Shown here: in pieces, positions 7,375 to 64,000 of the stretch
How positions within the stretch are numbered: the first letter of the stretch is position 1
How the letters are laid out: every line of letters starts with the position of its first letter
Origin: Cepaea nemoralis
Lineage: Eukaryota > Mollusca > Gastropoda > Stylommatophora > Helicidae
Direction of reading: 5' to 3'
Assembly: GCA_014155875.1 (NCBI GenBank)
Contig: JACEFZ010003474.1
Coordinates: forward strand, 380,501-444,500
DNA length: 64,000 nt
Notes under the pieces: model-generated
Seen by the model: only the letters and a program-made list of their open reading frames with translations
Told to the model about the DNA's origin: nothing
Database searches by the model: none
Program-made: the position numbers and the translations under genes

Positions 7375-7565
7375 AAGGGAAGCCAATGAGCTTGGTGGTC
7401 ATGTGTTTGAATCCTTATACAGACCAATGTTTTAAAAATTGACCTGAGCTCCCAGCCTAAACAGAGTACCAGGAAATGTTGTGGGAAGTAAAGGTGGCAT
7501 ACTTTGTCTTGACCATATGATTTTAGTACAACAATTACAGGACCATCGTACACGCCTTGAGGCAT
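7375..7565 (-). repeat. SINE-like family B copy (left half of an inverted pair)
   Basis: Minus-strand copy of the family whose core includes TTTACTTCCC...TTTCCTGG...AGGCTGGG...AGGTCAATTTTT. It runs head to head with the plus-strand copy at 7566-7765, both showing the GACAATTACAGGACC motif at the junction. Confidence 0.75.
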
Positions 7566-7765
7566 ATTGACCACATGACAGGACAATTACAGGACCGTTT
7601 TACGTGCCTGCAGCTATATTGGCTATATGGTACTAGCCAGATATTTTCGTAGACCAATCAGCACTTCATGAATGATTTGATCACCTTTACTTCCCAGAAA
7701 ATTTCCTGCTACCCAACTGAGGCTGGGTTAAACTTGAAGCCCCGGTCAATTTTTAAAACTTCCCA
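7566..7765 (+). repeat. SINE-like family B copy (right half of an inverted pair)
   Basis: Contains GTAGACCAATCAGCACTTCA, TTTACTTCCCAGAAAATTTCC, GAGGCTGGGTTAAACTTG and GGTCAATTTTTAAAACTTCC in the family order, which is repeated at 9110-9395 and 60365-60645. Confidence 0.75.
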
Positions 7766-8159
7766 CCTCAAGGGGAATTTGAATACCATTAATAGTGAAA
7801 GATGTGTGATACACCTTGTTTATTCAATAACTGCTGTTTTAAAGTGTCAACGTTGTTTTTATTTGTTAAGGGCATCTTTGTTGTTTATACTATAAGTTAT
7901 AACAAGATTGTAAATGTATATCGTAAAGATTGTTATCTGCATGCCTTTTATATATGCTTTTAACTTTACTGTGATATCATTTGTCATTTACACAGGTGTT
8001 AACTACTTCAGGTAATAAACACATAATGTCTGTGAACTATTTACTATGTTCATGGTCTGATTTATTTGGCTTATTTGTTGTGTAATATGTTGATCCTGTG
8101 ACATGTAATGCTATAGTAGTGTACAATTTTAAATGGGTTAAATTGGTTAAGCCGGTCTC
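7766..8159. other. No gene seen
   Basis: AT-rich DNA with no exon-like or element-like signal that I can support. Confidence 0.5.
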
Positions 8160-8400
8160 CGTGGCGAAGGGCTTATGGACGCAATTCATAAGCCTGTTTA
8201 CCCACGGTCTAAACACAGCTGCGACCGATTTGGCAGCAGACCGCATTGTGCTGGGTTTTAACATGTTGGTATGGGAGTCGGTCATTCAGAAAGCAATGAC
8301 AAACTACTGAACGTAAACTTGCCAAGACATCAACAATGGCAGTAAAATGCTGGTGTTGACAGCGATGTCCTGTAAATAGGATATGCAAAAACTGGTTAAA
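8160..8400 (-). repeat. SINE-like family A copy
   Basis: On the minus strand it reads TTGCATATCCTATTTACAGG, then CATCGCTGTCAACACCAGCA, then TTCAGTAGTTTGTCATTGCT TTCTGAATGACCGAC, then a GCGGTCTGCTGCCAAATCGG block. This is the full family order. Confidence 0.75.
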
Positions 8401-9109
8401 GTTATAAAAAATGCATGCATTAAGTGGGGAGGGGGAGGATGAGAACCAAGTCAAAAGAGGGACCATTATCAGTGTGGCACATCAAGGCAGACAATGACCA
8501 GGACTCCCACAGCTGTAGATGGAGGCCAGGATAGGTGTGATGTCAGAAAGCCCTCATCAACAAACAAAGATGAGGTGCATATCTCAGATGATGTGAATCA
8601 CAATGCATACATTGAATCCTCCAAGGAAATAATCAAGAGGATTAGATTAGCCAATAGAAGATGACAACAGAGGTCAAAGGGCGTAGGGAAAGAGGGGATG
8701 AAGCAGGAAGTGGGAGAAAGGTCAACAGCTACATATTAACAAGGAAGTGGGAGAAAGGTCAACATTAGCCAGGAAGGGAGTATATCATTCAGGTATCACC
8801 CTGGACAAAAAAGGAGAAGGTTCAGGAGAAAAAGGTCAAGGCAAGAGAATAGAAAACAAAAGGTAAGTACAGAGAAACAATAGATAGGATAATAGGTGGG
8901 GGAAGTGAGAACGAAGGGTGTCGGATGAAATGGGGAAAATGGAAAAGATGGTAATAAAAGTTAAATGAAACTTGTGTTGGACATTGAGACCTTGTGGCAA
9001 GAGGCATCCCATCTGGAAGATAAAGTAGTTTTGAAGAGCTGTGTGATATCTTACATAGAAGGAGCAAGATTTCATAGTCCTGACCTAGACATCCGATACC
9101 CCACTGTAT
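8401..9109. other. Purine-rich intergenic DNA, no gene seen
   Basis: The plus strand is rich in A and G. A short direct repeat GGAAGTGGGAGAAAGGTCAACA occurs twice between 8700 and 8765 (first copy lacks one or two leading bases). Nothing coding is supported. Confidence 0.5.
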
Positions 9110-41774: not shown

Positions 41775-42445
41775 TGTAGCATGATGGAACAGAGTCCCCA
41801 TTTCCAGTCCGACACATTTCATAAATATACTTTGAGTCTTAACAGGGACCATCCCAAAATAAGGGCTATTCTTGGATCGAAGGTTCCAGAACGAGTTGGG
41901 GGAGGCGGCGGTATGCACTTGTCTTATGATTGGTTCATAAATAATGAGCCCACGCTATTCCTGGGCCATATTTTAAAATCTAATTAGTAGGAGCGGGAAT
42001 TTCACCAGGAGCGGTCGCTAGAGTGATGTGATGACCCAACAATGCCCTTGTAGATTCAATATATTGTTCTCTGGACAACAGGTACCACTTTAAAACATAC
42101 TTTAATGTTGTGGCTAAACCTAATGTACGAAAGAGAAGAATATAAGAGTATTTTATGAATAATGTGTGAAAGTGGAAAACCTAACTTCTGTGCGCCAGAA
42201 TTCTGAATATTGCTTCTTCAACCTTGACACGTCTTTCACGCTGTATACTCCAGGTGCATATCAATCCCTTGTTGTGACTGGTTGCGTATGCTTGAGGAAT
42301 GTAGTACACTCATGCAGATTCGCAAACCAAAACCCCTTGTGCATTCTACATGCCTAGGATGACTTATTCTTAAACCAACTGTACCTTTGCTCTCGTGCGA
42401 GTTAACAAATGGCAGTCTGGATTGGAATGAGTGATGAAACATGTA
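41775..42445 (+). repeat. 3' LTR, left part (671 bp)
   Basis: Matches 35208-35878 at a constant offset of 6,567 bases and ends in CATGTA where the palindromic element begins. Confidence 0.9.
42440..42445 (+). other. 6-bp target-site duplication of the palindromic element, left copy (CATGTA)
   Basis: CATGTA occurs once in the uninterrupted 5' LTR (35873-35878) and twice here, at 42440-42445 and 57601-57606, exactly bracketing the insert. Confidence 0.93.
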
Positions 42446-42513
42446 AGTAGTAGGATACGTCCTAACTGATTAGTATTTCTGGATTGTGGTGCTGGATTGA
42501 CCCCAATCTAGCT

Positions 42514-42600
42514 GGGTTAGGGGTTAGGGGTTAGGGGTTAGGGGTAGGGGTTAGGGTTAGGGGTTAGGGTTAGGGGTTAGGGTTAGGGGTTAGGGTTAGG
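42514..42600 (+). repeat. Telomere-type repeats, left subterminal tract (87 bp)
   Basis: Mixed GGGGTTA and GGGTTA units. On the plus strand the G-rich strand reads inward. The matching tracts at the other two ends are about 107 bp (54332-54438) and 108 bp (57425-57532), which accounts for nearly all of the length difference between the arms. Confidence 0.95.
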
Positions 42601-43034
42601 TTTTTTTTTGGTCTTCTCCTAATTATACTTTCTGGATTGACCTCGCTGGATTTCCCCCAATCCAGGGCGGGTAGGGTGGGTATCTAAGTCATATGTAAGG
42701 GTTGATAATTCTAATAAAAGACATGTTTCTAAGGGCAGATAACTGAGTGTGTGTATAATATTTTAACTAATTTTAAAAAATAAATAAAAATAAATAACAA
42801 CCAAAGGCGCGCGGGGACGGTCGCAGGAGCGAGCGCGGCCGATCAGTCGCGTGGAGCGGTCGACCCAGTAAAACAGTGTCTTGTAGTACCCAAGTGGCCA
42901 GTTATTGCTGAGTGATCACTAGTCCGGTTATTGACGAGTACTGTGGTGGGGTTGGGTGGGTCGAAGCCTCGAGCCGCGCCGGGTGTCATATGAAAATTAT
43001 AATAAGTAAAAAGGTATATATGGCGTGTATATGA

Positions 43035-43245
43035 TCTGTAGTGGGTTCGTAGTGGCTTATAAACTATCATCATATAGATTAAACCTCTTCAAATGAAAAC
43101 CTTAAAACAGTAAAGATGACCGGTAGTAACGGATGTAAGGGGCATGGCTTAGTGTTATTCGTTGTTAAGGAGTAGGTGAGCGGAGAATTAGCTAGAGAAG
43201 TGCTTCTGAACATGTTAAAGGGGTGAGCGAGTGGCGAAGTGGCTA
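43035..43245 (+). repeat. tRNA-like/SINE-like unit 1 within the left arm
   Basis: Shares CTCTTCAAATGAAAACCTTA AA, GTAAAGATG and TATTCGTTGTTAAGG with 43437-43600. Position 43232-43242 (TGGCGAAGTGG) fits the polymerase III A-box consensus. Confidence 0.6.
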
Positions 43246-43436
43246 AATGAATGCGCCCGTTCCTTGATAAGAGCCAGGGTGATCGAGTGGAGAAGTGGGT
43301 AAATAATGGCATTGAGGTCTACCACTGACACATTCAACGCATAATGGCGGCGTCGGTAGTCAGAAGACCTAGGATATTTTCATTATATGTCTATTGTAAA
43401 GTGGTCGACTGTTTATTATAACGATAGTTTCTATTA

Positions 43437-43625
43437 TCTGTAGTGGATGGGACTTAAATACTATCATCATACCGTTTACAGCTCTTCAAATGAAAACCTT
43501 AAAAAGTAAAGATGGCCGATGGTTTTAGTGGGTATGACTTTGTGATATTCGTTGTTAAGGGGTGGGGTGAGTGGATGGGTAACTAGATAAACGCTTCCAA
43601 ACACTATCATCGGGTTCGAATCCCA
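43437..43625 (+). repeat. tRNA-like/SINE-like unit 2 within the left arm
   Basis: Diverged copy of unit 1, ending with GGTTCGAATCC at 43613-43623, a canonical B box. The A-box position is degenerate (GTGGATGGGTAACTAG). I see no complete tRNA cloverleaf. Confidence 0.6.
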
Positions 43626-43847
43626 GTGGGGCGGTCTAGTGGTAGAATAATATTTGGTTACTTAGTTGTAATTTCGAGCTATGGTGCTATTAACCCGGCT
43701 ATGTTTAGAAAAGGAGATGTGGTGTGCTGGCTGCGGAGTATGTTTAGGTGGTACCCCAGACACGGTGGAAGTGCTAGGTTCTAAGCTTGGAACTTTGTCG
43801 TTGGTAAAATTGCAGTCATCAACATGTGGGTCTCTAGTTGATCATGC

Positions 43848-43862
43848 GGGTTAGGGTTAGGG
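43848..43862 (+). repeat. Short internal telomere-type run
   Basis: GGGTTAGGGTTAGGG, with complementary partners at 53070-53084 and 56161-56175, next to a CG-rich CGCCGCGGCC block. Confidence 0.9.
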
Positions 43863-44661
43863 TCGCTTTGTCCGGCCTTGTCGCCGCGGCCACAAGTCCC
43901 ACCGGTGATGAAAAACACAGGCATCCGACTTCACAGCTTAACTTAACATAACATAAACGGGAGAACACAATATACCCATAACCTCAACAGGTGTTGCAAA
44001 AAATCAATACGCATCTTCATAACGGCTAATCCAGGGGATTATCATCCTCGTAATGACCAAGTCAGGTTAATAATATTTCTTATATCTCCGCCATTGCAAA
44101 TAGTTCGCGATATTAATAAAGGTTCATATAAAGGTTGGAAGGGGATTAAGAGATTAACACCTATTGTCGGGCCATCCAATAATAATTAATAACACTACCC
44201 TCGATTTTTCTCATAATTGCCGATTGGGGATTATGGGCTAGGTGTATGTGTCCTTATACAGTTAAAACAGGTGGTATGAGTAGGAGATATCACAAACAGT
44301 ATCAGCATGTGCCACTCTGATCTTAAATATCAGTAGTTCGTTATTCTTGTGACATTGAAAACGCTCGTGGTGTGAAGACGGATGGTGTACTATGTTATTG
44401 GGCGGTGTATATAGATTGACCAGTATGTGAAGTTGATAAGGTCACCCCCGTCAGCGCATCGTAGCTGTGTTGTGAATTGTCGCCTATTACATCCGGATGT
44501 GAAAATAACCAAAAATAGTTCACATCAACTCAATAGACATGCCTCTATATATCTGCACTGCGAACTTGGCTAGAGTCTACTTTAGGAAAGTATCGTGTAT
44601 CTGTGTATACGGGTTTACCACTGCTTATAGATGTGTGTAGTATTATTGGAAAGCGGCCGTT

Positions 44662-45012
44662 ATGTATACATTATCAGAGTATGTTGCCTTACAGAACTGG
44701 TATCGTGTCTATGTGTCTACCATGTTGCATGTTTTGTTCTGTTGCCTTGTAATCTTTGGAGGGAGTTTCATGCGGTTGTCTAGTGAATTAAAAAACGATG
44801 TCTCAGAATCCACAACGCCACTAGCAGTAGATGCTTTTCAACTTGTCTGCTCACTGACCTCGCTTCACAGTCATACAAAAGTACAGGGTCTATGTAGTAC
44901 TCAAGCACTCTGTGTATTACTCATTACAGTTGACAACTTTATATTAGTCAGTTTGTTTTCCAACTTGCAAAAGACAACCTTCATCACAGCGATTCTTGTT
45001 CTAACGCTTTAA
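44662..45012 (+). other. Unassigned 116-codon frame in the left arm (also in both right-arm copies)
   Basis: The predicted peptide has hydrophobic segments (MLHVLFCCLVIFGGSFM and a C-terminal FITAILVLTL) but no motif I know. It is repeated at 51921-52271 and 55013-55363 (minus), the last with one Cys-to-Tyr change. The copies are too similar for conservation to mean selection. I treat it as a chance frame unless transcripts show otherwise. Confidence 0.2.
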
Positions 45013-45540
45013 AGCCACCTCCCATCAGACATTTTTTTCTTCTGTCCTTGTAGTCTCTTGGCTACCGTTTCTCCATTTCAAGCTCCATGTCTCTACTCGT
45101 ATGCATTAGCGTGGTATAAGTAAACCGATAACTCACAAGATAGACGTATATTATCACACTGTATATGGACATGTGGGTAATGGTTGCATCCTGTCACCTG
45201 CGTAAGGGTACAACTGAGACACGTGGTTAAGAGGGGTAGTACAGGAAAAAAAACGGTATTCTTTTGGTTGTTGAACCAGGGGACCTAACTTGTGATTCAC
45301 CATGTAGGGAATGATTCTGCCCCCTCGTCAACAGGGCGTCGGAGGTTTAAAAGGGTGTTCATTCTCTCGATTTTCTATGTCTGAGTCGTCATAGGGTCAC
45401 CAAGTAACAGTAAAGAACACGAAACTACTACTACCAAGGCCTCTATAAACCACAAGGCAGTTTCGAATATAGTATACATAAATATAATCAAGTCAACCCT
45501 GTATTCAACTAATCCGTTCTCATAGACATAGAGGAGAGAT

Positions 45541-45930
45541 GTGAGCACCGAGGCCAGTTGGAGGAGGTGTACCTTTTACTTAACAGCTATCGGGTCATAC
45601 ACCGACGAGTGGTTAGATATTTTTATCACCTGTATAATATTACCCGTGAACACAACAAGCTTCCCCGGATCAGTCTTAGGCTTCTCATATAACATGACAT
45701 ATCACGTACCCGCTGGCCTGACTAGCGAAGTTATCGCGAATCAGAGCAGACATTTACACTTTCATTTACTCTTCTGTCTGGCCAAAGAGGTCTTTGCATC
45801 TTTCCCCAGAAACCTATTTCCAATGCCAATATATGATTTTCAATGTGTCGTCTCATTGCCACATTTCACAGCCAGACAAAAGTACAGGTTCTATGTTCCA
45901 CTCCAACAGACAAATAAGGAAAAATGTTAG
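45541..45930 (+). other. Unassigned 129-codon frame in the left arm (mirrored at 51003-51392)
   Basis: No known domain. It includes a 70-bp segment (45834-45903) that is a diverged copy of 44833-44902 in the previous frame (shared ACAAAAGTACAGG and TCTATGT), translated in a different frame. That argues for repeat-driven DNA rather than two proteins. Its 3' end runs into the satellite. Confidence 0.2.
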
Positions 45931-47580
45931 CCAAATTATTAAAATGTTGGCCAAATATAGAAATATATCGACCAGACGTATAAAATATAGTAAAATTTGT
46001 TAGCCAAACTGATAAAACTAGTGGTCAAAATAAGAAATATCTCAACCAAGCGTATAAGAAATAGGAAAAAGGCTAGTCAAACTAAGGAAAATGGTGGCCA
46101 AATACAGAAATATCTCGACCAACTTATAAAATGTAGGAAAAATTGTTAGCCAAACTGACAAAACAGTTGGTCAAAATAAGAAACGTCTCGACTAACATTA
46201 TAAAAAGTAGGAAAAATGGTAACCAAATTAATTAAAAAAGGTGACCAAAATAGGAAATATCTCGACCAAACTTATGAAAAGTAGGAAAATTGTTCGTCAA
46301 ATGTGATAAATATTGGGCAAGTAGGAAATCATGTTAGCCAAATAGGAAAAATATCGATCAAACTTATAGATGTCTTGTCCAAACTTATAAAATGTATGAA
46401 CATTTGTTAGCCAAAGGTGAAAAATATTGGCCAAGTAAAGAAATATCTCATCCGAATTTATAACAAGTAAGAAAACATGCTAGTAAAATCAAGAAATATG
46501 TCGACTGAAGTTATACAATAGGCGAAACGATGGACAAACTTATAAAGACGTCGACCTTTATAAGAAAATGTATTACCCAAATTAGGAAAAAATATTGACC
46601 AAGTTTTGAAATATCTCGACCAAACTTACAAAAAAGTAGGAAAATATGTCGACTAAGTAGGAACATTTGTTAGCCAAAGATGAAAAATATTGGTCAAGTA
46701 AAGAAATATCGCATCCAAACTTTTAAAATGTAGGAAACTTTATTAACCAAATGTGAAAAATATTGTCCAAGTAAAGACATGTTTCAACTAATCTTATAAA
46801 TATATCGTCCAAACTTATAAACATTAGGAAAATGTGTTAACCAAATGGGAAAAATATTGGCCAAGTGGAGAAATATCTCAACCATACTTATGAAAAAGAG
46901 GAAAATGTGTTAACCTAATGAGAAAAATATCGCCCAATTGAAGAAAAAAGTTACACAAAACTTATAAAACTTAGGAAAATGTGTTAACCTAATGAGAAAA
47001 ATATCGCCCAATTGAAGAAAAAAGTTACAAAAACTTATAAAACTTAGGAAAATGTGTTAACCTAATGAGAAAAATATCGCCCAATTGAAGAAAAAAGTTA
47101 CACAAAACTTATAAAACTTAGGAAAATGTGTTAACCTAATGAGAAAAATATCGCCCAATTGAAGAAAAAAGTTACACAAAACTTATACAACTTAGGAAAA
47201 TGTGTTAACCTATTGAGAAACATATAGCCCAATTGAAGAAAAAAGTTACACAAAACTTATAAAACTTAGGAAAATGTGTTAACCTAATGAGAAAAATATC
47301 GCCCAATTGAAGAAAAAAGTTACACAAAACTTATAAAAATGTGTTAACCTAATGAGAAAAATATTGAACAAGTAAAGAAAAACGTACACCAAACTTCTGA
47401 AAAGTAAGAAAATTTGTTAACCAAAAGGGAAAAATATATGGGCTAAACTATGAAATATGATGACCGAAGTAAGAAAATGTGTTAACCAAATGGGGAAAAA
47501 TGTTGGCCAAAACATGAAACATCTCGACCAAACTTATAAATATCTCGTGTTAACTTATAAAAAAGTAGGAACAAATATTG
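45930..47580 (+). repeat. AT-rich satellite of about 70-74 bp, left arm
   Basis: The recent part (about 46890-47370) has six near-identical units. The block AGAAAAATATCGCCCAATTG recurs at 46921 and 46995, a 74-bp period. Outer units are strongly diverged (GTTAGCCAAACTGATAAAAC / TATCTCGACCAAACTTATAA types). The homogeneous core inside diverged flanks is the usual pattern of unequal exchange. Confidence 0.95.
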
Positions 47581-48113
47581 CTTCTGTAGTTATGTCAAAC
47601 GTGTCTTGAACTTTTATCTGAACATACATTTCACAAGACATAATCATCAACGTCAACACTTTCCCTCTTTTACATTACCGAAAGCTCCAACTTATCAGTC
47701 CAGAGTATCCACTAAAGAAGCACTTATGCATACTAATCACCCAGATCTTCACACTCTTGGTTTTTTCTTTTCTAATACAAAGTGTCTCTGTCTTTCATAG
47801 ATAGCTTCACAACTTTTCTATGTAGCACCACTAACAACTCCAAACCTTCGTTGCACATGAGCTCTAATGAAACAGTCATAACAACATTTATGGCAATGCA
47901 ATCTGTGGCTCTACCTGGGATAGTTTCAATATCATCTGAGTATTCGTCAGCAAAGAGCCACTTCCCATGGCTGACATCTTCAACTTTCTATACCACAATG
48001 TCTGCTACACTAACCTTCCATTGGTCCATCTTTCAACAATACAAAGAGTGTTCTCGAAGTCTAGCTAACATAGCATTGCTTACTTTGTCCACCTCTATCA
48101 CACTTTGTCATTT

Positions 48114-48819
48114 CAAAGCTGCAATAGCGGCAAGTCTGCAACCAACCAACAGTGTCTGTTATTAAGTCGACCTTTCTTAAAGCCACGTCTGCCTTATTGA
48201 GCCCTTGAATACCCTCTACCACATCGTCTAACCGACTTTCAACGTTTCATACCAAATAACATTAACATTCTCTTTGATTACAGAACAGCTGATTTTCTGC
48301 TGACTAGGCAGATTTTCCAACCTCGTGGAGATAAATCATATGCCCCCTAACCTACTAGGCGCTATTCTAGACAACGAATATGGTCATCGACCAGCACCCC
48401 TAGGCAGAACTTGAAAAAACAACAACAGAGCTTGGGTTATTGAGACGAATGAGTTGCATTCCTTGGACTACCAGAGTGACATCAAACACAACAAACACTT
48501 TCTTACTAACCCTAACCCTAAGTATACATCATCTAATCCTAACCCTAACCCTAACCCTAACCCTAACTATACAACAAACTCTTTCTTAAGAGACATAGAT
48601 ACAAACCAGTGTTGGAAATGAAAAAGTTAAATTTATGTGATTACATTTTAATTAAAATTTAAAACTAATAAATCGCAATATTATTGCTCGCTTCACTTAA
48701 TATACATATATAGGGTAAGTATAGGTATAGGCTAGGTATAGGACACATATCAAACTTACATCTTGCGCAATAATATTGCGATTTATTAGTTTTAAATTTT
48801 AATTAAAATGTAATCACAT
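48114..48819 (+). other. Unpaired spacer of the palindrome
   Basis: About 518 bp (48114-48631) has no partner in the right arm. It includes (CCCTAA)n at 48507-48568, in the orientation opposite to the left subterminal tract. The rest is the nested hairpin described separately. A 127-codon frame (47782-48165) reads from the arm into the spacer and has no motif. Confidence 0.8.
48507..48568 (-). repeat. Telomere-type repeats in the spacer
   Basis: Two CCCTAA blocks separated by AGTATACATCATCTAATC. The second has about five units. Confidence 0.95.
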
Positions 48820-48822
48820 AAA
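48632..48822. repeat. Nested inverted repeat near the centre (56-bp stems, 79-bp loop)
   Basis: 48632-48687 (TTTATGTGATTACATTTTAA ... GCAATATTATTGC) is complementary to 48767-48822. The loop (48688-48766) is AT-rich with TAGGTATAGG-like repeats. The right stem runs directly into the start of the right arm, so this hairpin was probably the original turn of the palindrome. Confidence 0.93.
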
Positions 48823-51800
48823 TGACAAAGTGTGATAGAGGTGGACAAAGTAAGCAATGCTATGTTAGCTAGACTTCGAGAACACTCTTTGTATTGTTGA
48901 AAGATGGACCAATGGAAGGTTAGTGTAGCAGACATTGTGGTATAGAAAGTTGAAGATGTCAGCCATGGGAAGTGGCTCTTTGCTGACGAATACTCAGATG
49001 ATATTGAAACTATCCCAGGTAGAGCCACAGATTGCATTGCCATAAATGTTGTTATGACTGTTTCATTAGAGCTCATGTGCAACGAAGGTTTGGAGTTGTT
49101 AGTGGTGCTACATAGAAAAGTTGTGAAGCTATCTATGAAAGACAGAGACACTTTGTATTAGAAAAGAAAAAACCAAGAGTGTGAAGATCTGGGTGATTAG
49201 TATGCATAAGTGCTTCTTTAGTGGATACTCTGGACTGATAAGTTGGAGCTTTCGGTAATGTAAAAGAGGGAAAGTGTTGACGTTGATGATTATGTCTTGT
49301 GAAATGTATGTTCAGATAAAAGTTCAAGACACGTTTGACATAACTACAGAAGCAATATTTGTTCCTACTTTTTTATAAGTTAACACGAGATATTTATAAG
49401 TTTGGTCGAGATGTTTCATGTTTTGGCCAACATTTTTCCCCATTTGGTTAACACATTTTCTTACTTCGGTCATCATATTTCATAGTTTAGCCCATATATT
49501 TTTCCCTTTTGGTTAACAAATTTTCTTACTTTTCAGAAGTTTGGTGTACGTTTTTCTTTACTTGTTCAATATTTTTCTCATTAGGTTAACACATTTTTAT
49601 AAGTTTTGTGTAACTTTTTTCTTCAATTGGGCGATATTTTTCTCATTAGGTTAACACATTTTCCTAAGTTTTATAAGTTTTGTGTAACTTTTTTCTTCAA
49701 TTGGGCTATATGTTTCTCAATAGGTTAACACATTTTCCTAAGTTGTATAAGTTTTGTGTAACTTTTTTCTTCAATTGGGCGATATTTTTCTCATTAGGTT
49801 AACACATTTTCCTAAGTTTTATAAGTTTTGTGTAACTTTTTTCTTCAATTGGGCGATATTTTTCTCATTAGGTTAACACATTTTCCTAAGTTTTATAAGT
49901 TTTTGTAACTTTTTTCTTCAATTGGGCGATATTTTTCTCATTAGGTTAACACATTTTCCTAAGTTTTATAAGTTTTGTGTAACTTTTTTCTTCAATTGGG
50001 CGATATTTTTCTCATTAGGTTAACACATTTTCCTCTTTTTCATAAGTATGGTTGAGATATTTCTCCACTTGGCCAATATTTTTCCCATTTGGTTAACACA
50101 TTTTCCTAATGTTTATAAGTTTGGACGATATATTTATAAGATTAGTTGAAACATGTCTTTACTTGGACAATATTTTTCACATTTGGTTAATAAAGTTTCC
50201 TACATTTTAAAAGTTTGGATGCGATATTTCTTTACTTGACCAATATTTTTCATCTTTGGCTAACAAATGTTCCTACTTAGTCGACATATTTTCCTACTTT
50301 TTTGTAAGTTTGGTCGAGATATTTCAAAACTTGGTCAATATTTTTTCCTAATTTGGGTAATACATTTTCTTATAAAGGTCGACGTCTTTATAAGTTTGTC
50401 CATCGTTTCGCCTATTGTATAACTTCAGTCGACATATTTCTTGATTTTACTAGCATGTTTTCTTACTTGTTATAAATTCGGATGAGATATTTCTTTACTT
50501 GGCCAATATTTTTCACCTTTGGCTAACAAATGTTCATACATTTTATAAGTTTGGACAAGACATCTATAAGTTTGATCGATATTTTTCCTATTTGGCTAAC
50601 ATGATTTCCTACTTGCCCAATATTTATCACATTTGACGAACAATTTTCCTACTTTTCATAAGTTTGGTCGAGATATTTCCTATTTTGGTCACCTTTTTTA
50701 ATTAATTTGGTTACCATTTTTCCTACTTTTTATAATGTTAGTCGAGACGTTTCTTATTTTGACCAACTGTTTTGTCAGTTTGGCTAACAATTTTTCCTAC
50801 ATTTTATAAGTTGGTCGAGATATTTCTGTATTTGGCCACCATTTTCCTTAGTTTGACTAGCCTTTTTCCTATTTCTTATACGCTTGGTTGAGATATTTCT
50901 TATTTTGACCACTAGTTTTATCAGTTTGGCTAACAAATTTTACTATATTGTATACGTCTGGTCGATATATTTCTATATTTGGCCAACATTTTAATAATTT
51001 GGCTAACATTTTTCCTTATTTGTCTGTTGGAGTGGAACATAGAACCTGTACTTTTGTCTGGCTGTGAAATGTGGCAATGAGACGACACATTGAAAATCAT
51101 ATATTGGCATTGGAAATAGGTTTCTGGGGAAAGATGCAAAGACCTCTTTGGCCAGACAGAAGAGTAAATGAAAGTGTAAATGTCTGCTCTGATTCGCGAT
51201 AACTTCGCTAGTCAGGCCAGCGGGTACGTGATATGTCATGTTATATGAGAAGCCTAAGACTGATCCGGGGAAGCTTGTTGTGTTCACGGGTAATATTATA
51301 CAGGTGATAAAAATATCTAACCACTCGTCGGTGTATGACCCGATAGCTGTTAAGTAAAAGGTACACCTCCTCCAACTGGCCTCGGTGCTCACATCTCTCC
51401 TCTATGTCTATGAGAACGGATTAGTTGAATACTGGGTTGACTTGATTATATTTATGTATACTATATTCGAAACTGCCTTGTGGTTTATAGAGGCCTTGGT
51501 AGTAGTAGTTTCGTGTTCTTTACTGTTACTTGGTGACCCTATGACGACTCAGACATAGAAAATCGAGAGAATGAACACCCTTTTAAACCTCCGACGCCCT
51601 GTTGACGAGGGGGCAGAATCATTCCCTACATGGTGAATCACAAGTTAGGTCCCCTGGTTCAACAACCAAAAGAATACCGTTTTTTTTCCTGTACTACCCC
51701 TCTTAACCACGTGTCTCAGTTGTACCCTTACGCAGGTGACAGGATGCAACCATTACCCACATGTCCATATACAGTGTGATAATATACGTCTATCTTGTGA

Positions 51801-54506
51801 GTTATCGGTTTACTTATACCACGCTAATGCATACGAGTAGAGACATGGAGCTTGAAATGGAGAAACGGTAGCCAAGAGACTACAAGGACAGAAGAAAAAA
51901 ATGTCTGATGGGAGGTGGCTTTAAAGCGTTAGAACAAGAATCGCTGTGATGAAGGTTGTCTTTTGCAAGTTGGAAAACAAACTGACTAATATAAAGTTGT
52001 CAACTGTAATGAGTAATACACAGAGTGCTTGAGTACTACATAGACCCTGTACTTTTGTATGACTGTGAAGCGAGGTCAGTGAGCAGACAAGTTGAAAAGC
52101 ATCTACTGCTAGTGGCGTTGTGGATTCTGAGACATCGTTTTTTAATTCACTAGACAACCGCATGAAACTCCCTCCAAAGATTACAAGGCAACAGAACAAA
52201 ACATGCAACATGGTAGACACATAGACACGATACCAGTTCTGTAAGGCAACATACTCTGATAATGTATACATAACGGCCGCTTTCCAATAATACTACACAC
52301 ATCTATAAGCAGTGGTAAACCCGTATACACAGATACACGATACTTTCCTAAAGTAGACTCTAGCCAAGTTCGCAGTGCAGATATATAGAGGCATGTCTAT
52401 TGAGTTGATGTGAACTATTTTTGGTTATTTTCACATCCGGATGTAATAGGCGACAATTCACAACACAGCTACGATGCGCTGACGGGGGTGACCTTATCAA
52501 CTTCACATACTGGTCAATCTATATACACCGCCCAATAACATAGTACACCATCCGTCTTCACACCACGAGCGTTTTCAATGTCACAAGAATAACGAACTAC
52601 TGATATTTAAGATCAGAGTGGCACATGCTGATACTGTTTGTGATATCTCCTACTCATACCACCTGTTTTAACTGTATAAGGACACATACACCTAGCCCAT
52701 AATCCCCAATCGGCAATTATGAGAAAAATCGAGGGTAGTGTTATTAATTATTATTGGATGGCCCGACAATAGGTGTTAATCTCTTAATCCCCTTCCAACC
52801 TTTATATGAACCTTTATTAATATCGCGAACTATTTGCAATGGCGGAGATATAAGAAATATTATTAACCTGACTTGGTCATTACGAGGATGATAATCCCCT
52901 GGATTAGCCGTTATGAAGATGCGTATTGATTTTTTGCAACACCTGTTGAGGTTATGGGTATATTGTGTTCTCCCGTTTATGTTATGTTAAGTTAAGCTGT
53001 GAAGTCGGATGCCTGTGTTTTTCATCACCGGTGGGACTTGTGGCCGCGGCGACAAGGCCGGACAAAGCGACCCTAACCCTAACCCGCATGATCAACTAGA
53101 GACCCACATGTTGATGACTGCAATTTTACCAACGACAAAGTTCCAAGCTTAGAACCTAGCACTTCCACCGTGTCTGGGGTACCACCTAAACATACTCCGC
53201 AGCCAGCACACCACATCTCCTTTTCTAAACATAGCCGGGTTAATAGCACCATAGCTCGAAATTACAACTAAGTAACCAAATATTATTCTACCACTAGACC
53301 GCCCCACTGGGATTCGAACCCGATGATAGTGTTTGGAAGCGTTTATCTAGTTACCCATCCACTCACCCCACCCCTTAACAACGAATATCACAAAGTCATA
53401 CCCACTAAAACCATCGGCCATCTTTACTTTTAAGGTTTTCATTTGAAGAGCTGTAAACGGTATGATGATAGTATTTAAGTCCCATCCACTACAGATAATA
53501 GAAACTATCGTTATAATAAACAGTCGACCACTTTACAATAGACATATAATGAAAATATCCTAGGTCTTCTGACTACCGACGCCGCCATTATGCGTTGAAT
53601 GTGTCAGTGGTAGACCTCAATGCCATTATTTACCCACTTCTCCACTCGATCACCCTGGCTCTTATCAAGGAACGGGCGCATTCATTTAGCCACTTCGCCA
53701 CTCGCTCACCCCTTTAACATGTTCAGAAGCACTTCTCTAGCTAATTCTCCGCTCACCTACTCCTTAACAACGAATAACACTAAGCCATGCCCCTTACATC
53801 CGTTACTACCGGTCATCTTTACTGTTTTAAGGTTTTCATTTGAAGAGGTTTAATCTATATGATGATAGTTTATAAGCCACTACGAACCCACTACAGATCA
53901 TATACACGCCATATATACCTTTTTACTTATTATAATTTTCATATGACACCCGGCGCGGCTCGAGGCTTCGACCCACCCAACCCCACCACAGTACTCGTCA
54001 ATAACCGGACTAGTGATCACTCAGCAATAACTGGCCACTTGGGTACTACAAGACACTGTTTTACTGGGTCGACCGCTCCACGCGACTGATCGGCCGCGCT
54101 CGCTCCTGCGACCGTCCCCGCGCGCCTTTGGTTGTTATTTATTTTTATTTATTTTTTAAAATTAGTTAAAATATTATACACACACTCAGTTATCTGCCCT
54201 TAGAAACATGTCTTTTATTAGAATTATCAACCCTTACATATGACTTAGATACCCACCCTACCCGCCCTGGATTGGGGGAAATCCAGCGAGGTCAATCCAG
54301 AAAGTATAATTAGGAGAAGACCAAAAAAAAACCTAACCCTAACCCCTAACCCTAACCCCTAACCCTAACCCCTAACCCCTAACCCTAACCCCTAACCCTA
54401 ACCCCTACCCCTAACCCCTAACCCCTAACCCCTAACCCAGCTAGATTGGGGTCAATCCAGCACCACAATCCAGAAATACTAATCAGTTAGGACGTATCCT
54501 ACTACT
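48820..54506 (-). repeat. Right arm of the palindrome (5,687 bp)
   Basis: Complement of the left arm in full, including rare variant satellite units in mirrored order: the AACCTATTGAGAAACATATA variant at about 47208 has its complement near 49710. The satellite occupies 49365-51010. The terminus CCTACTACT ends at 54506. Confidence 0.95.
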
Positions 54507-54509
54507 GTA

Positions 54510-57500
54510 GGATTAGTTGAATACAGGGTTGACTTGATTATATTTATGTATACTATATTCGAAACTGCCTTGTGGTTTATAGAGGCCTTGGTAGTAGTAG
54601 TTTCGTGTTCTTTACTGTTACTTGGTGACCCTATGACGACTCAGACATAGAAAATCGAGAGAATGAACACCCTTTTAAACCTCCGACGCCCTGTTGACGA
54701 GGGGGCAGAATCATTCCCTACATGGTGAATCACAAGTTAGGTCCCCTGGTTCAACAACCAAAAGAATACCGTTTTTTTTCCTGTACTACCCCTCTTAACC
54801 ACGTGTCTCAGTTGTACCCTTACGCAGGTGACAGGATGCAACCATTACCCACATGTCCATATACAGTGTGATAATATACGTCTATCTTGTGAGTTATCGG
54901 TTTACTTATACCACGCTAATGCATACGAGTAGAGACATGGAGCTTGAAATGGAGAAACGGTAGCCAAGAGACTACAAGGACAGAAGAAAAAAATGTCTGA
55001 TGGGAGGTGGCTTTAAAGCGTTAGAACAAGAATCGCTGTGATGAAGGTTGTCTTTTGCAAGTTGGAAAACAAACTGACTAATATAAAGTTGTCAACTGTA
55101 ATGAGTAATACATAGAGTGCTTGAGTACTACATAGACCCTGTACTTTTGTATGACTGTGAAGCGAGGTCAGTGAGCAGACAAGTTGAAAAGCATCTACTG
55201 CTAGTGGCGTTGTGGATTCTGAGACATCGTTTTTTAATTCACTAGACAACCGCATGAAACTCCCTCCAAAGATTACAAGGCAACAGAACAAAACATGCAA
55301 CATGGTAGACACATAGACACGATACCAGTTCTGTAAGGCAACATACTCTGATAATGTATACATAACGGCCGCTTTCCAATAATACTACACACATCTATAA
55401 GCAGTGGTAAACCCGTATACACAGATACACGATACTTTCCTAAAGTAGACTCTAGCCAAGTTCGCAGTGCAGCTATATAGAGGCATGTCTATTGAGTTGA
55501 TGTGAACTATTTTTGGTTATTTTCACATCCCGGATGTAATAGGCGACAATTCACAACACAGCTACGATGCGCTGACGGGGTGACCTTATCAACTTCACAT
55601 ACTGGTCAATCTATATACACCGCCCAATAACATAGTACACCATCCGTCTTCACACCACGAGCGTTTTCAATGTCACAAGAATAACGAACTACTGATATTT
55701 AAGATCAGAGTGGCACATGCTGATACTGTTTGTGATATCTCCTACTCATACCACCTGTTTTAACTGCATAAGGACACATACACCTAGCCCATAATCCCCA
55801 ATCGGCAATTATGAGAAAAATCGAGGGTAGTGTTATTAATTATTATTGGATGGCCCGACAATAGGTGTTAATCTCTTAATCCCCTTCCAACCTTTATATG
55901 AACCTTTATTAATATCGCGAACTATTTGCAATGGCGGAGATATAAGAAATATTATTAACCTGACTTGGTCATTACGAGGATGATAATCCCCTGGATTAGC
56001 CGTTATGAAGATGCGTATTGATTTTTTGCAACACCTGTTGAGGTTATGGGTATATTGTGTTCTCCCGTTTATGTTATGTTAAGTTAAGCTGTGAAGTCGG
56101 ATGCCTGTGTTTTCATCACCGGTGGGACTTGTGGCCGCGGCGACAAGGCCGGACAAAGCGACCCTAACCCTAACCCGCTATGATCAACTAGAGACCCACA
56201 TGTTGATGACTGCAATTTTACCAACGACAAAGTTCCAAGCTTAGAACCTAGCACTTCCACCGTGTCTGGGGTACCACCTAAACATACTCCGCAGCCAGCA
56301 CACCACATCTCCTTTTCTAAACATAGCCGGGTTAATAGCACCATAGCTCGAAATTACAACTAAGTAACCAAATATTATTCTACCACTAGACCGCCCCACT
56401 GGGATTCGAACCCGATGATAGTGTTTGGAAGCGTTTATCTAGTTACCATCCACTCACCCCACCCCTTAACAACGAATATCACAAAGTCATACCCACTAAA
56501 ACCATCGGCCATCTTTACTTTTTAAGGTTTTCATTTGAAGAGCTGTAAACGGTATGATGATAGTATTTAAGTCCCATCCACTACAGATAATAGAAACTAT
56601 CGTTATAATAAACAGTCGACCACTTTACAATAGACATATAATGAAAATATCCTAGGTCTTCTGACTACCGACGCCGCCATTATGCATTGAATGTGTCAGT
56701 GGTAGACCTCAATGCCATTATTTACCCACTTCTCCACTCGATCACCCTGGCTCTTATCAAGGAACAGGCGCATTCATTTAGCCACTTCGCCACTCGCTCA
56801 CCCCTTTAAAATGTTCAGAAGCACTTCTCTAGCTAATTCTCCGCTCACCTACTCCTTAACAACGAATAACACTAAGCCATGCCCCTTACATCCGTTACTA
56901 CCGGTCATCTTTACTGTTTTAAGGTTTTCATTTGAAGAGGTTTAATCTATATGATGATAGTTTATAAGCCACTACGAACCCACTACAGATCATATACACG
57001 CCATATATACCTTTTTACTTATTATAATTTTCATATGACACCCGGCGCGGCTCGAGGCTTCGACCCACCCAACCCCACCACAGTACTCGTCAATAACCGG
57101 ACTAGTGATCACTCAGCAATAACTGGCCACTTGGGTACTACAAGACACTGTTTTACTGGGTCGACCGCTCCACGCGACTGATCGGCCGCGCTCGCTCCTG
57201 CGACCGTCCCCGCGCGCCTTTGGTTGTTATTTATTTTTATTTATTTTTTTAAAATTAGTTAAAATATTATACACACACTCAGTTATCTGCCCTTAGAAAC
57301 ATGTCTTTTATTAGAATTATCAACCCTTACATATGACTTAGATACCCACCCTACCCGCCCTGGATTGGGGGAAATCCAGCGAGGTCAATCCAGAAAGTAT
57401 AATTAGGAGAAGACCAAAAAAAAAACCTAACCCTAACCCCTAACCCTAACCCCTAACCCTAACCCCTAACCCCTAACCCTAACCCCTAACCCTAACCCCT

Positions 57501-57600
57501 ACCCCTAACCCCTAACCCCTAACCCCTAGCCCAGCTAGATTGGGGTCAATCCAGCACCACAATCCAGAAATACTAATCAGTTAGGACGTATCCTACTACT
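54510..57600 (-). repeat. Tandem second copy of the outer right arm (3.1 kb)
   Basis: Repeats 51418-54506 in direct orientation, starting GGATTAGTTGAATAC and ending at the same terminus CCTACTACT. Three bases (GTA) sit at the junction. By eye it differs from the inner copy at over a dozen positions (for example CACATCCCGGATG for CACATCCGGATG, AACTGCATAAGG for AACTGTATAAGG, GGAACAGGCGC for GGAACGGGCGC). At most of these sites the left arm agrees with the inner copy. Confidence 0.95.
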
Positions 57601-60207
57601 CATGTACAAGTTCCTTTGTAAAAACGCAGAGATTGATGGAGTGAGTGAGTGGGTGATTTAATAAATAGCCTCTCACATTAGTGGAAGGAAAGATGCTTCA
57701 AATATCCATATGTAAACAGGACGGTGATGGCACGCCAGAATTGCTAAGTCCATGTGATGCCTGGTTGCTATAAACTCAAGAGAATTACTATAATTTCTCT
57801 TTGAAGTATTACACTGTTACCTCTACTGTTGGATGGTTCATATAAACTAGTTCCTCAGAGAACCATAGGTGTGTGAACCTGTGTTTTAGTTGGCTGAATA
57901 TAATGTATGGCTCATGCAAACTTACAAGGACTAAACATGTTTTTCCACATATGTGCTTGGTGCATATGTGAACTATTGCTATGCAATTGAGCTTCTGTTA
58001 CCTACTGTGGACATTACTCAGTGGGGAGAGAGCACATGATGATGATAAAGATGATGTACCTGTGAGTCAGGTCTGTCTGAGAAAAGGGGTGAGGTCTGGC
58101 ATTGCTGTGTGAATATGGAATAAGACATTCATGCACCAACATCACAGCCATAGGAATGGATGTCTGGTCTGCTAATTGGGTAAATGCCATTAGTTAATAC
58201 ATAATGCATATTGCAGTTGTAAATGCCTATTTTCCATTTCCCTTCACAATGCCTGTCCCATGTTGCTATGTCACAATGATTGCTGTACTGTGTCTGGTCC
58301 TCCTTGTGCCCAGGTCTACTGTGGTTCAAACATGGTGGAACTTAGACCACATAAATGCTTGTAATTGTGTTAAGCTACCCTGTCTCAGCATATGGTCTTG
58401 TGATTACCACAGTACATCAGAGTGAAATTCACTACATCATCAACCTTAACCTTCCCCATCTCCATCTGTGTATGTTAATGTATGATAACATCATCTTTTA
58501 ACACATGTGAAGAGATGTTGTGCCATTCTATATATCCACAGAGAACAGGAGGATGGAGGAGAGGCATCCATATATCATCTGGGAAAACTAACCAGTAGTC
58601 CCAGAATCCAGAACCAACTCTCTATAAGTGAAATCTGCTAGAAACCCACAACATGGGAATTTCCTAGAGACTTTCAGCTCAGCTCTCAAACAGCTGGATA
58701 TAAAAGAAAGAGAGAAAAACAGTTCTGAAGACTTCAATAATAAGAAGTACAATGATCATTAATCAAATGTCATCTGAGAAAGAAACAACAAGTCTGGTTG
58801 TTAACCCCATTCAAGACAACTTGTGAAATGACTGGTGCAATGGATTGTTTAGCTAGGACTTATCTTGGTTAATCTCCAGCCTGGTGCTCACAGTGTTGAA
58901 GAATGTGACTTGAGGTGTAGGTGAGATTGGACTGACTGAGGGGCTGCAGTATATTGGATTTTGTTCCTATCTCTGGGTTTCTTCAGCAAGTCATGTTCTG
59001 CATGTACCGAGTATACATCTCCCAATGTCAGGAGAGTGTTATCCTCAACTTTTGAAGTATCCCGGTATCAGCATTCACAGACAGTCTGGTCAACGGTGAG
59101 AGACAGTATCATATCATCCTACCAATTCTTGTCTTCAAGAGGAATGAATCTGCCATGAAGCTTATTTTGGGAAAGCTGCTAACTGGAGCTAGTCCAACAT
59201 CCATGCTGATGATAAAAGGATTCAACAGACCCAGAACAGTAGTTTCTTCCTTGAGTTGCCCATGGATAGGATTTCCTAAATTCCCAAGAGACATGAGATG
59301 AGGATAGAGATAGATACTGTAAACAGAATGGTGTAGTGGTACTTAGAGAGGAGAGGTGGATAAGAGTTATTAGTTGGTGGAGTATTGGAGAGGTGGTGTA
59401 TCATGTTATCTGCATGCATGTTAGCATATTTGTACATTGTGTATGTACCTGTTGAGGTGTTGACATGACAAATGGATGAACAATGGTCATCACTAACTAG
59501 ACTCACCATCAGCTCAATAAACAGTATGATTGAACCAGTGTTTCAAGTACATGTCCCCAGTGAATTTCTTGTACAGTTGCTGTCAAGTGTTGTCTCTGGT
59601 GACTGTCTTAAGTGCTGTGGTTGGTTATACATATTGTGAAAAGTCCTGTATAGATGTTGTCAGGTATCTCATGATGTCTATCTTGTACACTTGTGGTGTA
59701 AACCAATTCCTTGTGAGTGTATGTTCCACTTTTGTCAAGAAACTGTCATGTAGATGTCCTGTCCAACAGATGTAATGTACAGTTATTGTTGAAGTTTGTT
59801 TGTCTGCAAAATTGAAGGACTACTTGAACTGATATAGGTCATACTGACAAAATAAAGAAAGAAGAGATCTAGGTGACGGACGAACAGCACACTGTCAACA
59901 GTATAATGAGTGAGAGGGATCCTCAGTTGTACAGGCGCTAATAGTTCAGATCTTTTCTGGCCTTAAGGGAACCTTTTACTTCTTTTATAAATTTCTGTGT
60001 AGATACATAATAGTCTCACAGTGGGGGTTGAGCCAAAGAAAAATGGTTCTCCAAAAAGGCTATTGCGGGAATGTTTAGCTCATTTGAGTGACCTCTAGAC
60101 AAAACGTGCTAAATCATATCCTTTATCTTGGTATTTATTATTCAAGATATATCTCCAGAGAACACTACAACTAGGTCCTCTGGCAACTCAATCTACAACA
60201 TGTCACA
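57601..60207 (+). repeat. 3' LTR, right part (2,607 bp including CATGTA duplicate)
   Basis: Matches 35873-38480 with about three single-base indels noted by eye (near 58644, 59473 and 59808) and ends ATGTCACA. The first six bases are the right copy of the CATGTA duplication. Confidence 0.93.
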
Positions 60208-60789: not shown

Positions 60790-61072
60790 GGAAAACCTCA
60801 TCACTGTGGTCAAACTCTGTTCCTACCGACGAGGATCCAAATGCGGACATCTTCTTCTTATAGCCCATGCCGTTTTGGTATTGGTGATCATGTCTTCCAC
60901 AGCCTTCTGTCGCTTGTGCTGCCGACCAATTATGATACCGATGTTCGTTCATGCCACGATGTCAAACTGTCCAAAAGCTCCTCTCTGGATCTCCCCCTGC
61001 CTCTCCTCCCCTCCAACTTTCCCTTTGTGACAACATACACCAGTTTTCCCCTTCTAATTACATGCCCACAGA
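60790..61072 (-). pseudogene. RTE-type retrotransposon C-terminal remnant
   Basis: The minus strand reads GHVIRRGKLVYVVTKGKLEG, then RRGRGRSREELLDSLTSW, then a stop and RRLWKT-like text in another frame. These are the GHVMRR / VTTGKIEG / GRGRxRE-LLD blocks of RTE-like ORFs. The minisatellite starts where the upstream part of the ORF should lie. Confidence 0.75.
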
Positions 61073-61073
61073 C

Positions 61074-64000
61074 TGTGGATTGTCTACTTCTGATGAGAAT
61101 CACCAGTTCTCCTTGTGCATTAATCACAGAATTGAGACTGTCTACTTCTGATGAGAATCACCAGTTCTCCTTGTGCATTAATCACAGAATGTGGACTGTC
61201 TACTTCTGATGAGAGTCACCAGTTCTCCTTGTGCATTAATCACAGAATGTGGATTGTCTACTTCTGATGAGAGTCACCAGTTCTCCTTGTGCATTAATCA
61301 CAGAATGTGGACTGTCTACTTCTGATGAGAGTCACCAGTTCTCCTTGTGCATTAATCACAGAATTGAGACTGTCTACTTCTGATGAGAGTCACCAGTTCT
61401 CCTTGTGCATTAATCACAGAATGTGGACTGTCTACTTGTGATGAGAGTCACCAGTTCTCCTTGTGCATTCATCACAGAATGTGGACTGTCTACTTGTGAT
61501 GAGAGTCACCAGTTCTCCTTGTGCATTAATCACAGAATGTGGACTGTCTACTTCTGATGAGAGTCACCAGTTCTTCTTGTGCATTAATCACAGAATGTGG
61601 ACTGTCTACTTCTGATGAGAGTCACCAGTTCTCCTTGTGCATTAATCACAGAATTGAGATTGTCTACTTCTGATGAGAGTCACCAGTTCTTCTTGTGCAT
61701 TAATCACAGAATGTGGACTGTCTACTTCTGATGAGAGTCACCAGTTCTCCTTGTGCATTAATCACAGAATGTGGACTGTCTACTTCTGATGAGAGTCACC
61801 AGTTCTTCTTGTGCATTAATCACAGAATGTGGACTGTCTACTTCTGATGAGAGTCACCAGTTCTCCTTGTGCATTAATCACAGAATGTGGATTGTCTACT
61901 TGTGATAGAGTCACCAGTTATCCTTGTGCATTAATCACAGAATGTGGACTGTCTACTTCTGATGAGAGTCACCAGTTCTTCTTGTGCATTAATCACAGAA
62001 TGTGGACTGTCTACTTCTGATGAGAGTCACCAGTTCTCCTTGTGCATTAATCACAGAATGTGGATTGTCTACTTCTGATGAGAGTCACCAGTTCTCCTTG
62101 TGCATTCATCACAGAATGTGGACTATCTACTTCTGATGAGAGTCACCAGTTCTCCTTGTGCATTAATCACAGAATTGAGACTGTCTACTTGTGATAGAGT
62201 CACCAGTTCTCCTTGTGCATTAATCACAGAATTGAGACTGTCTACTTCTGATGAGAGTCACCAGTTCTCCTTGTGCATTAATCACAGAATGTGGACTGTC
62301 TACTTGTGATAGAGTCACCAGTTCTCCTTGTGCATTAATCACAGAATTGAGATTGTCTACTTCTGATGAGAGTCACCAGTTCTCCTTGTGCATTAATCAC
62401 AGAATGTGGACTGTCTACTTCTGATGAGAGTCACCAGTTCTCCTTGTGCATTAATCACAGAATTGAGACTGTCTACTTCTGATGAGAGTCACCAGTTCTC
62501 CTTGTGCATTAATCACAGAATTGAGACTGTCTACTTCTGATGAGAGTCACCAGTTCTTCTTGTGCATTAATCACAGAATGTGGACTGTCTACTTCTAATG
62601 AGAGTCACCAGTTCTCCTCGTGCATTAATCACAGAATGTGGACTGTCTACTTGTGATAGATGCACCAGTTCTCCTTGTGCATTAATCACAGAATGTGGAC
62701 TGTCTACTTCTGATGAGAGTCACCAGTTATCCTTGTGCATTAATCACAGAATGTGGACTGTCTACTTGTGATAGAGTCACCAGTTCTCCTTGTGCATTAA
62801 TCACAGAATGTGGACTGTCTACTTCTGATGAGAGTCACCAGTTCTCCTTGTGCATTAATCACAGAATGTGGACTGTCTACTTCTGATGAGAGTCACCAGT
62901 TCTCCTTGTGCATTAATCACAGAATGTGGATTGTCTACTTGTGATAGAGTCACCAGTTATCCTTGTGCATTAATCACAGAATGTGGACTGTCTACTTCTG
63001 ATGAGAGTCACCAGTTCTTCTTGTGCATTAATCACAGAATGTGGACTGTCTACTTCTGATGAGAGTCACCAGTTCTCCTTGTGCATTAATCACAGAATGT
63101 GGACTGTCTACTTGTGATAGAGTCACCAGTTATCCTTGTGCATTAATCACAGAATGTGGACTGTCTACTTCTGATGAGAGTCACCAGTTCTTCTTGTGCA
63201 TTAATCACAGAATTGAGACTGTCTACTTCTGATGAGAGTCACCAGTTCTCCTTGTGCATTAATCACAGAATTGAGACTGTCTACTTCTGATGAGAGTCAC
63301 CAGTTCTCCTTGTGCATTAATCACAGAATGTGGACTGTCTACTTGTGATGAGAGTCACCAGTTCTCCTTGTGCATTCATCACAGAATGTGGACTGTCTAC
63401 TTGTGATGAGAGTCACCAGTTCTCCTTGTGCATTAATCACAGAATGTGGACTGTCTACTTCTGATGAGAGTCACCAGTTCTTCTTGTGCATTAATCACAG
63501 AATGTGGACTGTCTACTTCTGATGAGAGTCACCAGTTCTCCTTGTGCATTAATCACAGAATGTGGACTGTCTACTTCTGATGAGAGTCACCAGTTCTTCT
63601 TGTGCATTAATCACAGAATGTGGACTGTCTACTTCTGATGAGAGTCACCAGTTCTCCTTGTGCATTAATCACAGAATGTGGACTGTCTACTTCTGATGAG
63701 AGTCACCAGTTCTTCTTGTGCATTAATCACAGAATGTGGACTGTCTACTTCTGATGAGAGTCACCAGTTCTCCTTGTGCATTCATCACAGAATGTGGACT
63801 GTCTACTTGTGATGAGAGTCACCAGTTCTCCTTGTGCATTCATCACAGAATGTGGACTGTCTACTTGTGATGAGAGTCACCAGTTCTCCTTGTGCATTAA
63901 TCACAGAATGTGGACTGTCTACTTCTGATGAGAGTCACCAGTTCTTCTTGTGCATTCATCACAGAATGTGGACTGTCTACTTCTGATGAGAGTCACCAGT
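61074..64000 (+). repeat. 58-bp minisatellite, about 50 copies, continues past the window
   Basis: The unit runs GACTGTCTACTTCTGATGAG, AGTCACCAGTTCTCCTTGTG, CATTAATCACAGAATGTG. Variants are ATTGA for ATGTG, TTCTTG for TCCTTG, GTGATAGAG (57 bp) for CTGATGAGAG, and CATTCATC for CATTAATC. The 63-codon frames here arise from 57-bp variant monomers and are not genes. Confidence 0.98.
62695..63232 (+). repeat. Three-monomer higher-order repeat (173 bp) within the minisatellite
   Basis: The variant pattern (58 + 57 + 58 bp) recurs at 62695, 62868 and 63041, steps of exactly 173 bp. The same trimer also occurs at 61829, where the 63-codon translation is identical to that at 62868. Confidence 0.85.

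Follow-up and report, generated by a model that had tools for sequence, protein, structure and literature searches.

The window analyzed here is a stretch of 64,000 nucleotides (nt) of the 3.47-Gb Cepaea nemoralis genome (C3206:380501-444500; names beginning with C denote contigs of this genome, and positions given without a contig name are those of the window). It contains a giant palindromic element that is probably a gene-free derivative of the Polintons (Mavericks) of the same genome. The left arm, L (42446-48687, forward strand), is followed by a 79-nt loop at the dyad (48688-48766) and by the right arm, R1 (48767-54506, reverse strand), which is the reverse complement of L minus 517 bp. 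The arms pair at 99.6% over 5,688 aligned columns (42446-48113 versus 48820-54506), with two mismatches and two gaps, one of which is a 20-bp telomere-like unit, and the inner arms (48631-48687 and 48767-48823) pair at 100% around the loop. As the longest inverted self-match starting between positions 2001 and 42445, away from the element, is 221 nt at 75%, the palindrome is not due to chance. The complementary ends given in a sequence-only reading of the window (AGTAGTAGGATACG... and ...CGTATCCTACTACT) were found to be exact at the element tips. L is non-coding; it begins with the motif (AGT)2 (42446-42451, forward strand), as described for Mavericks (PMC8097293), and contains a telomere-like GGGTTA/GGGGTTA tract near the tip (42514-42600, forward strand) as well as 74-bp minisatellite units between 45912 and 47505.

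The 517-bp segment that is present in L (48114-48630, forward strand) and missing from R1 has ATTT at both borders. Since the copy on C1032 holds this segment on both sides (99.6% and 94.1%), the window arms were originally about 6.24 kb long, and the loss occurred in the right arm. The sequence-only reading had taken 42446-57600 as one palindrome. This is the case for 42446-54506; a three-way comparison of the arms ruled it out for the whole span, as 54507-57600 repeats the right tip once more, with slight divergence. This additional copy, R2 (54510-57600, reverse strand), duplicates the outermost 3.09 kb of R1 (51418-54506) in direct orientation at 99.5% and differs from both L and R1 at 14 private places, seven of them substitutions and seven one-base indels. 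R2 is joined to R1 through the filler GTA (54507-54509, forward strand); a 7-bp inverted repeat (ATCCTAC-TACT-GTAGGAT) lies over the junction, and its GGAT is common to the copied tip. In a tree of 31 tips, L and R1 are sisters and R2 falls outside them. A near sister on C20186 was considered as the source of R2 and rejected, as it sides with L and R1 at 14 of the 14 R2-private places.

The composite L-R1-R2 (42446-57600) is flanked by CATGTA at 42440-42445 and 57601-57606, the right copy matching the left, and it is GTAGGA, not CATGTA, that adjoins the R1 tip. The insertion sits in the second long terminal repeat (LTR) of an LTR element (35208-60206), the first LTR of which keeps an uninterrupted empty site at 35873-35878; both the duplication and the empty site had been correctly described from the letters of the window. 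Between the two LTRs, identity is 99.85% over 2,612 columns and 100% over 671; therefore, the insertions of the LTR element and of the palindrome are both recent.

The absence of recognizable genes, likewise proposed earlier, was borne out. The longest stop-to-stop frame of the window element has 132 amino acids (aa), and a Pfam search with its 8 distinct frames of at least 80 aa gave a single match (E 0.086), which is under the family cut-off. No genes for pPolB, integrase, capsid, ATPase, or protease were found in the window element, and an Rfam scan of the window gave no match. A DDE cut-and-paste transposase was not found in the window element either; in five other copies, the Pfam scan covered the longest one of their frames of at least 120 aa.

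A dispersed family of palindromic copies

The genome was searched with probes from the tip, the mid-arm, and the dyad, and 40 candidates were scored for each (of 1,250, 2,778, and 1,862, respectively). These best 40 candidates gave at least 47 matches for the tip, at least 40 for the mid-arm, and at least 41 for the dyad. Among the matches listed, pairs were found on 13 of 26 contigs with the dyad probe and on 9 of 31 with the mid-arm probe, every pair being in plus-then-minus orientation. The two dyad-probe matches are 2.04-2.07 kb apart in 9 of the 13 pairs, 1.53 kb apart in the window, as the 517-bp loss predicts, and 1.30, 1.52, and 1.71 kb apart in the others.

Thirteen independent loci, including the window, were read at both tips. 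The elements span 12.0-15.2 kb, except that of C13030 (9.6 kb). Five elements were read whole, those of C8514 and C1125 in two pieces, and that of C8071 in part; for C15376b, C15330, C7432, C1032, and C13030, about 1 kb was read at each end, together with the center of C1032. The copies C15376b and C1032 also yield mid-arm and dyad pairs. Two insertions were seen in two apparent haplotigs each (C22622/C15376a and C15330/C2542); we treated C15376a and C2542 as alleles of C22622 and C15330, respectively, as their printed flanks correspond in reverse orientation. Seven further copies (C8071, C20523, C17481, C6273, C20186, C5588, and C24818) were read at one tip and stand outside the duplication counts.

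Exact 6-bp duplications, all different, flank the element in 10 of the 13 independent loci (CATGTA, GAAATG, GATGTG, CGTAGG, CTTATT, GCCAAG, GTGGCG, CCCCCC, TTAAGG, and GACCAG), and C13030 is flanked by ACCGGT/ACCGGG, which agree in 5 of 6 letters. AGTAGT starts all 34 tips compared (31 from palindromes and 3 from coding elements, the eroded right tip of the coding element on C9345 being omitted), although it should be noted that the tips of C1032 and the far tips of C8514 and C1125 were located using this motif itself. In the first 260 nt of these 34 tips, GGGTTA occurs 10-24 times. The sequence-only reading had made its proposal depend on further copies that share these ends and have 6-bp duplications; such copies do exist, with exact duplications in 10 of 13 loci.

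Two members of the family carry additional sequence. The palindrome on C23133 has a 1.39-kb insert at the dyad (element positions 7459-8849) with a 294-aa frame, which we take to resemble the end of a Penelope reverse transcriptase plus GIY-YIG; this frame had no Pfam match. In C6273, the first 890 nt of the tip are in common with the family and are followed by a different interior with reverse-transcriptase-like frames.

Arm identity within copies

Over 3.7 kb, the two arms of one copy are 99.3-99.9% identical in 6 of 6 copies, versus 98.3% for the best match between copies. When 1 kb of each tip was compared, the arms of one locus were mutually closest in 10 of 13 loci; therefore, the arms appear to be remade from one template in each round, as happens with LTRs. 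We infer that a new insertion would carry identical arms, which would then diverge with time in the manner of LTRs. The tree of 31 tips groups the arms of 9 of 13 loci (C22622 and C15330 with their haplotigs), does not resolve those of C25630 and C8514, and separates those of C15376b and C13030. Divergence between arms reaches 6-7% and is highest at C15376b and C13030, which may be chimeras. The tips of these two copies fail to group in a way that looks as if copies had exchanged ends.

The two arms at the C22622 locus differ by 11 substitutions and 5 gap columns that are seen again in the second haplotig, C15376a; a further 2 substitutions and 28 gap columns follow other patterns. The arm differences common to both haplotigs argue against gene conversion since the haplotypes split, and against an assembly error at this locus.

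Coding Polintons and symmetric elements of the same genome

Coding Polintons with pPolB, an rve integrase, an adenovirus-type protease, a packaging ATPase, and terminal repeats of about 0.5 kb are present in the same genome, and they have the tip sequence and the telomere-like tract in common with the palindromes. Relatives with the same ends and coding interiors, for which the sequence-only reading had suggested looking, are thus available on C9345 and C24545. The tip of C9345 (AGTAGTGGGTTACGTCC...) and its telomere-like tract are as in the palindrome family, with 81-89% identity to four palindrome arms over 443-491 columns. Its terminal repeats are about 515 bp long (86% identity), and CCTATC flanks both sides if the loss of about 7 nt from the right tip is allowed for. 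Pfam matches of C9345 pieces include rve (2.7e-13), Adeno_IVa2 (1.3e-05), and Peptidase_C5 (8.5e-07), as well as PC4 and Chromo; the PC4 (p15 coactivator) domain (6.4e-09) lies in a frame of piece L028:1391-2107. The larger polymerase piece of C9345 matched 1,943 proteins among 7,993 scored, among them gastropod PF03175 proteins at 54-55%. Pfam searches with the polymerase and capsid-region pieces of C9345 gave no match, and a PDB sequence search with one polymerase and one capsid-like piece gave none; the capsid gene is a candidate based on gene order and resemblance. The exact tip block was not found in the viral contigs searched.

The second coding element, C24545, is 14.9 kb long, with terminal repeats of about 0.52 kb (95% identity), the target-site duplication (TSD) CAGGAG, and coding Polinton sequence inside. 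Its tips are about 84% identical to one palindrome arm over 420-470 nt and, like that of C9345, contain the telomere-like tract. When the polymerase piece was compared with this genome, at least 62 matches were obtained (61 scored, of 4,335 candidates), many of them stop-free; therefore, a source of enzymes exists in the genome, with no single one picked.

A further element, C14018:279471-294424 (14,954 bp), is flanked by AATGTG on both sides, has tips that are identical over the 125 columns read, and is 97.5% palindromic over 1.66 kb at its center. It has one pPolB match per half, mirrored, at 4,573 and 4,507 bp from the ends; the sequence between tips and center is known from these polymerase matches alone. 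A second inverted arrangement lies on C6837, where the identity to C14018 is 99% in one half and 80-85% in the other. Most simply, this Polinton population would have given rise to symmetric forms on more than one occasion; descent from one symmetric ancestor is also compatible with the evidence. Divergent pairs of pPolB matches 6-10 kb apart were observed on C5294, C26223, and C21762 and could be head-to-head insertions or other symmetric forms.

Other features of the window

The LTR element that hosts the insertion has LTRs of about 3.28 kb with TG..CA ends, is flanked by the TSD AAAGG, and is without long frames. Its inside is 3.29 kb long, with a longest frame of at most 115 aa, and it is a large non-autonomous retroelement resembling large retrotransposon derivatives (LARD-like). 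A 58-bp satellite array occupies 61067-64000 and continues past the window end. For a retroelement frame of the window and for the Polinton polymerase, the best organism-named matches were gastropods (Littorina, Bradybaena, and Nucella).

Discussion

Taken together, the window element is most probably a palindromic, gene-free relative of the coding Polintons found in its genome, whose protein-primed polymerase likely replicates it and whose integrase likely inserts it. A linear genome that is replicated from its termini and undergoes a strand switch would be consistent with the (AGT)2 ends, the coding relatives, and the identity of the arms within copies. A Polinton genome would be copied as linear DNA from its ends, and a strand switch at a short internal inverted repeat would double one end to give a snap-back genome. 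With complementary halves, a displaced strand would fold into a hairpin (or panhandle), and any copy could then be rebuilt from one arm, so that arm differences would be erased in each round. A likely origin of R2 is the joining of one linear molecule's tip to the broken tip of another, nearly identical molecule, either before integration or in its course. Replication and integration in trans, the rebuilding through hairpins, and this origin of R2 are what we infer; in particular, protein-primed replication of the palindromes is suggested by the end motif and the coding kin.

Several points weigh against this interpretation. The route of replication and transposition is read from genomic sequence alone. 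C9339 and C7432 are without target duplication, and the CCCCCC duplication of C15376b carries little weight, as it is located within a run of C. Similarity of the palindrome arm to the coding element C9345 is confined to about 1-443 and 1722-1960 (C9339 numbering), i.e., over about 0.44 kb and 0.24 kb of a 6-kb arm, and C9345 itself has lost about 7 nt from its right tip and has its polymerase split over two frames. Over 1 kb, the arms of C8514, C15376b, and C13030 (3 of 13 loci) are not mutually closest, and a single site, arm column 3080, at which L goes with R2 and R1 goes with C20186, speaks against L and R1 being sisters. C14018 is a symmetric Polinton and a parallel case rather than an established ancestor of the palindromes, as its tip has only 24-33 of the first 40 letters in common with the six tips compared and no GGGTTA tract in the 130 nt read.

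Alternatively, the arms of a Polinton-derived palindrome could be kept alike by gene conversion after integration, a process known from intrachromosomal palindromes such as those of sex chromosomes. This would also account for the arm identity of 98.3-100% over the first kilobase at 11 of 13 loci. We consider this unlikely, as the arm differences of C22622 (11 substitutions and 5 gap columns) persist in haplotig C15376a, the 517-bp loss from the right arm of the window was left unrepaired, and arm divergence reaches 6-7%, with the reservation that the two top loci (C15376b and C13030) may be chimeras. The very long inverted arms typical of foldback elements, and the fact that no Polinton gene was found in the arms, might instead suggest a foldback element, or some other cut-and-paste transposon from a different superfamily, with ends that only happen to look like those of Polintons. 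This is highly improbable and was rejected: the tip of about 440 nt, the (AGT)2 motif, the telomere-like tract, and the 6-bp duplication are all common with the coding Polintons of the same genome, while Foldback/Galileo duplications measure 7-9 bp.

Inverted artefacts are common in long-read libraries, the analysis used assembly sequence, and 7 of the 14 R2-private differences are one-base indels, as would be expected from poor polishing; a folded-back read or a mis-join might thus have produced the palindrome. Such an artefact would not explain why the palindromes stop at transposon tips and have a 6-bp duplication there at 10 of 13 loci, why arm-specific differences are repeated in two haplotigs, or why 9 of 13 pairs have a dyad spacing of 2.04-2.07 kb. 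A pure artefact was therefore rejected, and we give it next to no credence, while the R2 junction alone could be a mis-join.

The 6-bp target duplication (exact at 10 of the 13 loci, with one letter of six differing at another and no duplication at two), the (AGT)2//(ACT)2 ends (AGTAGT at 34 of 34 tips), and the terminal sequence in common with coding members (C9345 and C24545) are Polinton/Maverick traits, whereas no Polinton genes were found in the window element and its arms of 6.2 kb exceed the terminal repeats of about 0.5 kb in C9345 and C24545. The element is therefore a non-autonomous palindromic derivative and not a Polinton proper. The sequence-only reading had proposed a non-autonomous, arm-dominated element, possibly mobilized by a Polinton-type integrase, or else a new class. 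The former is supported by the same-ended copies, their 6-bp duplications, and the coding relatives, with such an integrase as the likely means of insertion; a new class was rejected as unnecessary, since coding Polintons carry the same ends.

To our knowledge, Polinton replication in animals has so far been inferred from gene content. A symmetric gene-free family with LTR-like arm aging would be a genomic footprint of this replication, would mean that defective-interfering-type genomes are not limited to free viruses but also occur in an endogenous virus-like transposon, and would account for a class of giant palindromes that repeat-rich assemblies may break or mask. We see about even chances for a broader proposal, namely a lasting satellite lineage in which gene-free snap-back genomes parasitize Polinton replication and integration and regenerate both arms in each round. 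The polymerase-bearing forms such as C14018 would then be recurrent symmetric genomes, showing that Polintons repeatedly yield them, and hence linear protein-primed extrachromosomal replication with defective interfering forms would occur in animals.

Non-autonomous Polintons may be listed in Repbase. A palindromic Polinton was not named in the literature searched by title and abstract start, a search that did not extend to Repbase or subscription papers. Foldback/Galileo elements resemble the palindromes in being arm-dominated, with little or no coding content and with internal tandem repeats; they use a P-superfamily transposase and produce 7-9 bp duplications, unlike the family described here, which has 6-bp duplications and no transposase found in the window element. 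For adenovirus, symmetric genomes (SYREC and similar) exist as recombinants, although no paper on them was among the results listed by a literature search. These genomes resemble the palindromes in having a mirror-imaged end of a linear viral genome and in receiving help in trans, but they are packaged or episomal, whereas the palindromes form a dispersed genomic family with target duplications. The same likeness and the same difference apply to the snap-back defective genomes known for adeno-associated virus (PMC8235507). Linear pPolB plasmids (invertrons) integrated in fungal mitochondria with long inverted flanks (PMC1864894) are likewise protein-primed linear DNA, and racquet or panhandle intermediates were invoked there for the long inverted repeats; those repeats are host DNA around the plasmid, whereas here they are the element itself. 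The closest system is that of the Polintons/Mavericks (polintoviruses, adintovirus-like), with (AGT)2//(ACT)2 ends and 6-bp duplications as marks, linked to jumping-back in protein priming, and with terminal repeats of 46-1,447 bp in vertebrates (PMC8097293). The window element is like them in its 6-bp duplication, end motif, inverted terminal repeats, and tip sequence, and unlike them in being gene-free, with arms of about 6.2 kb around a 79-nt loop.

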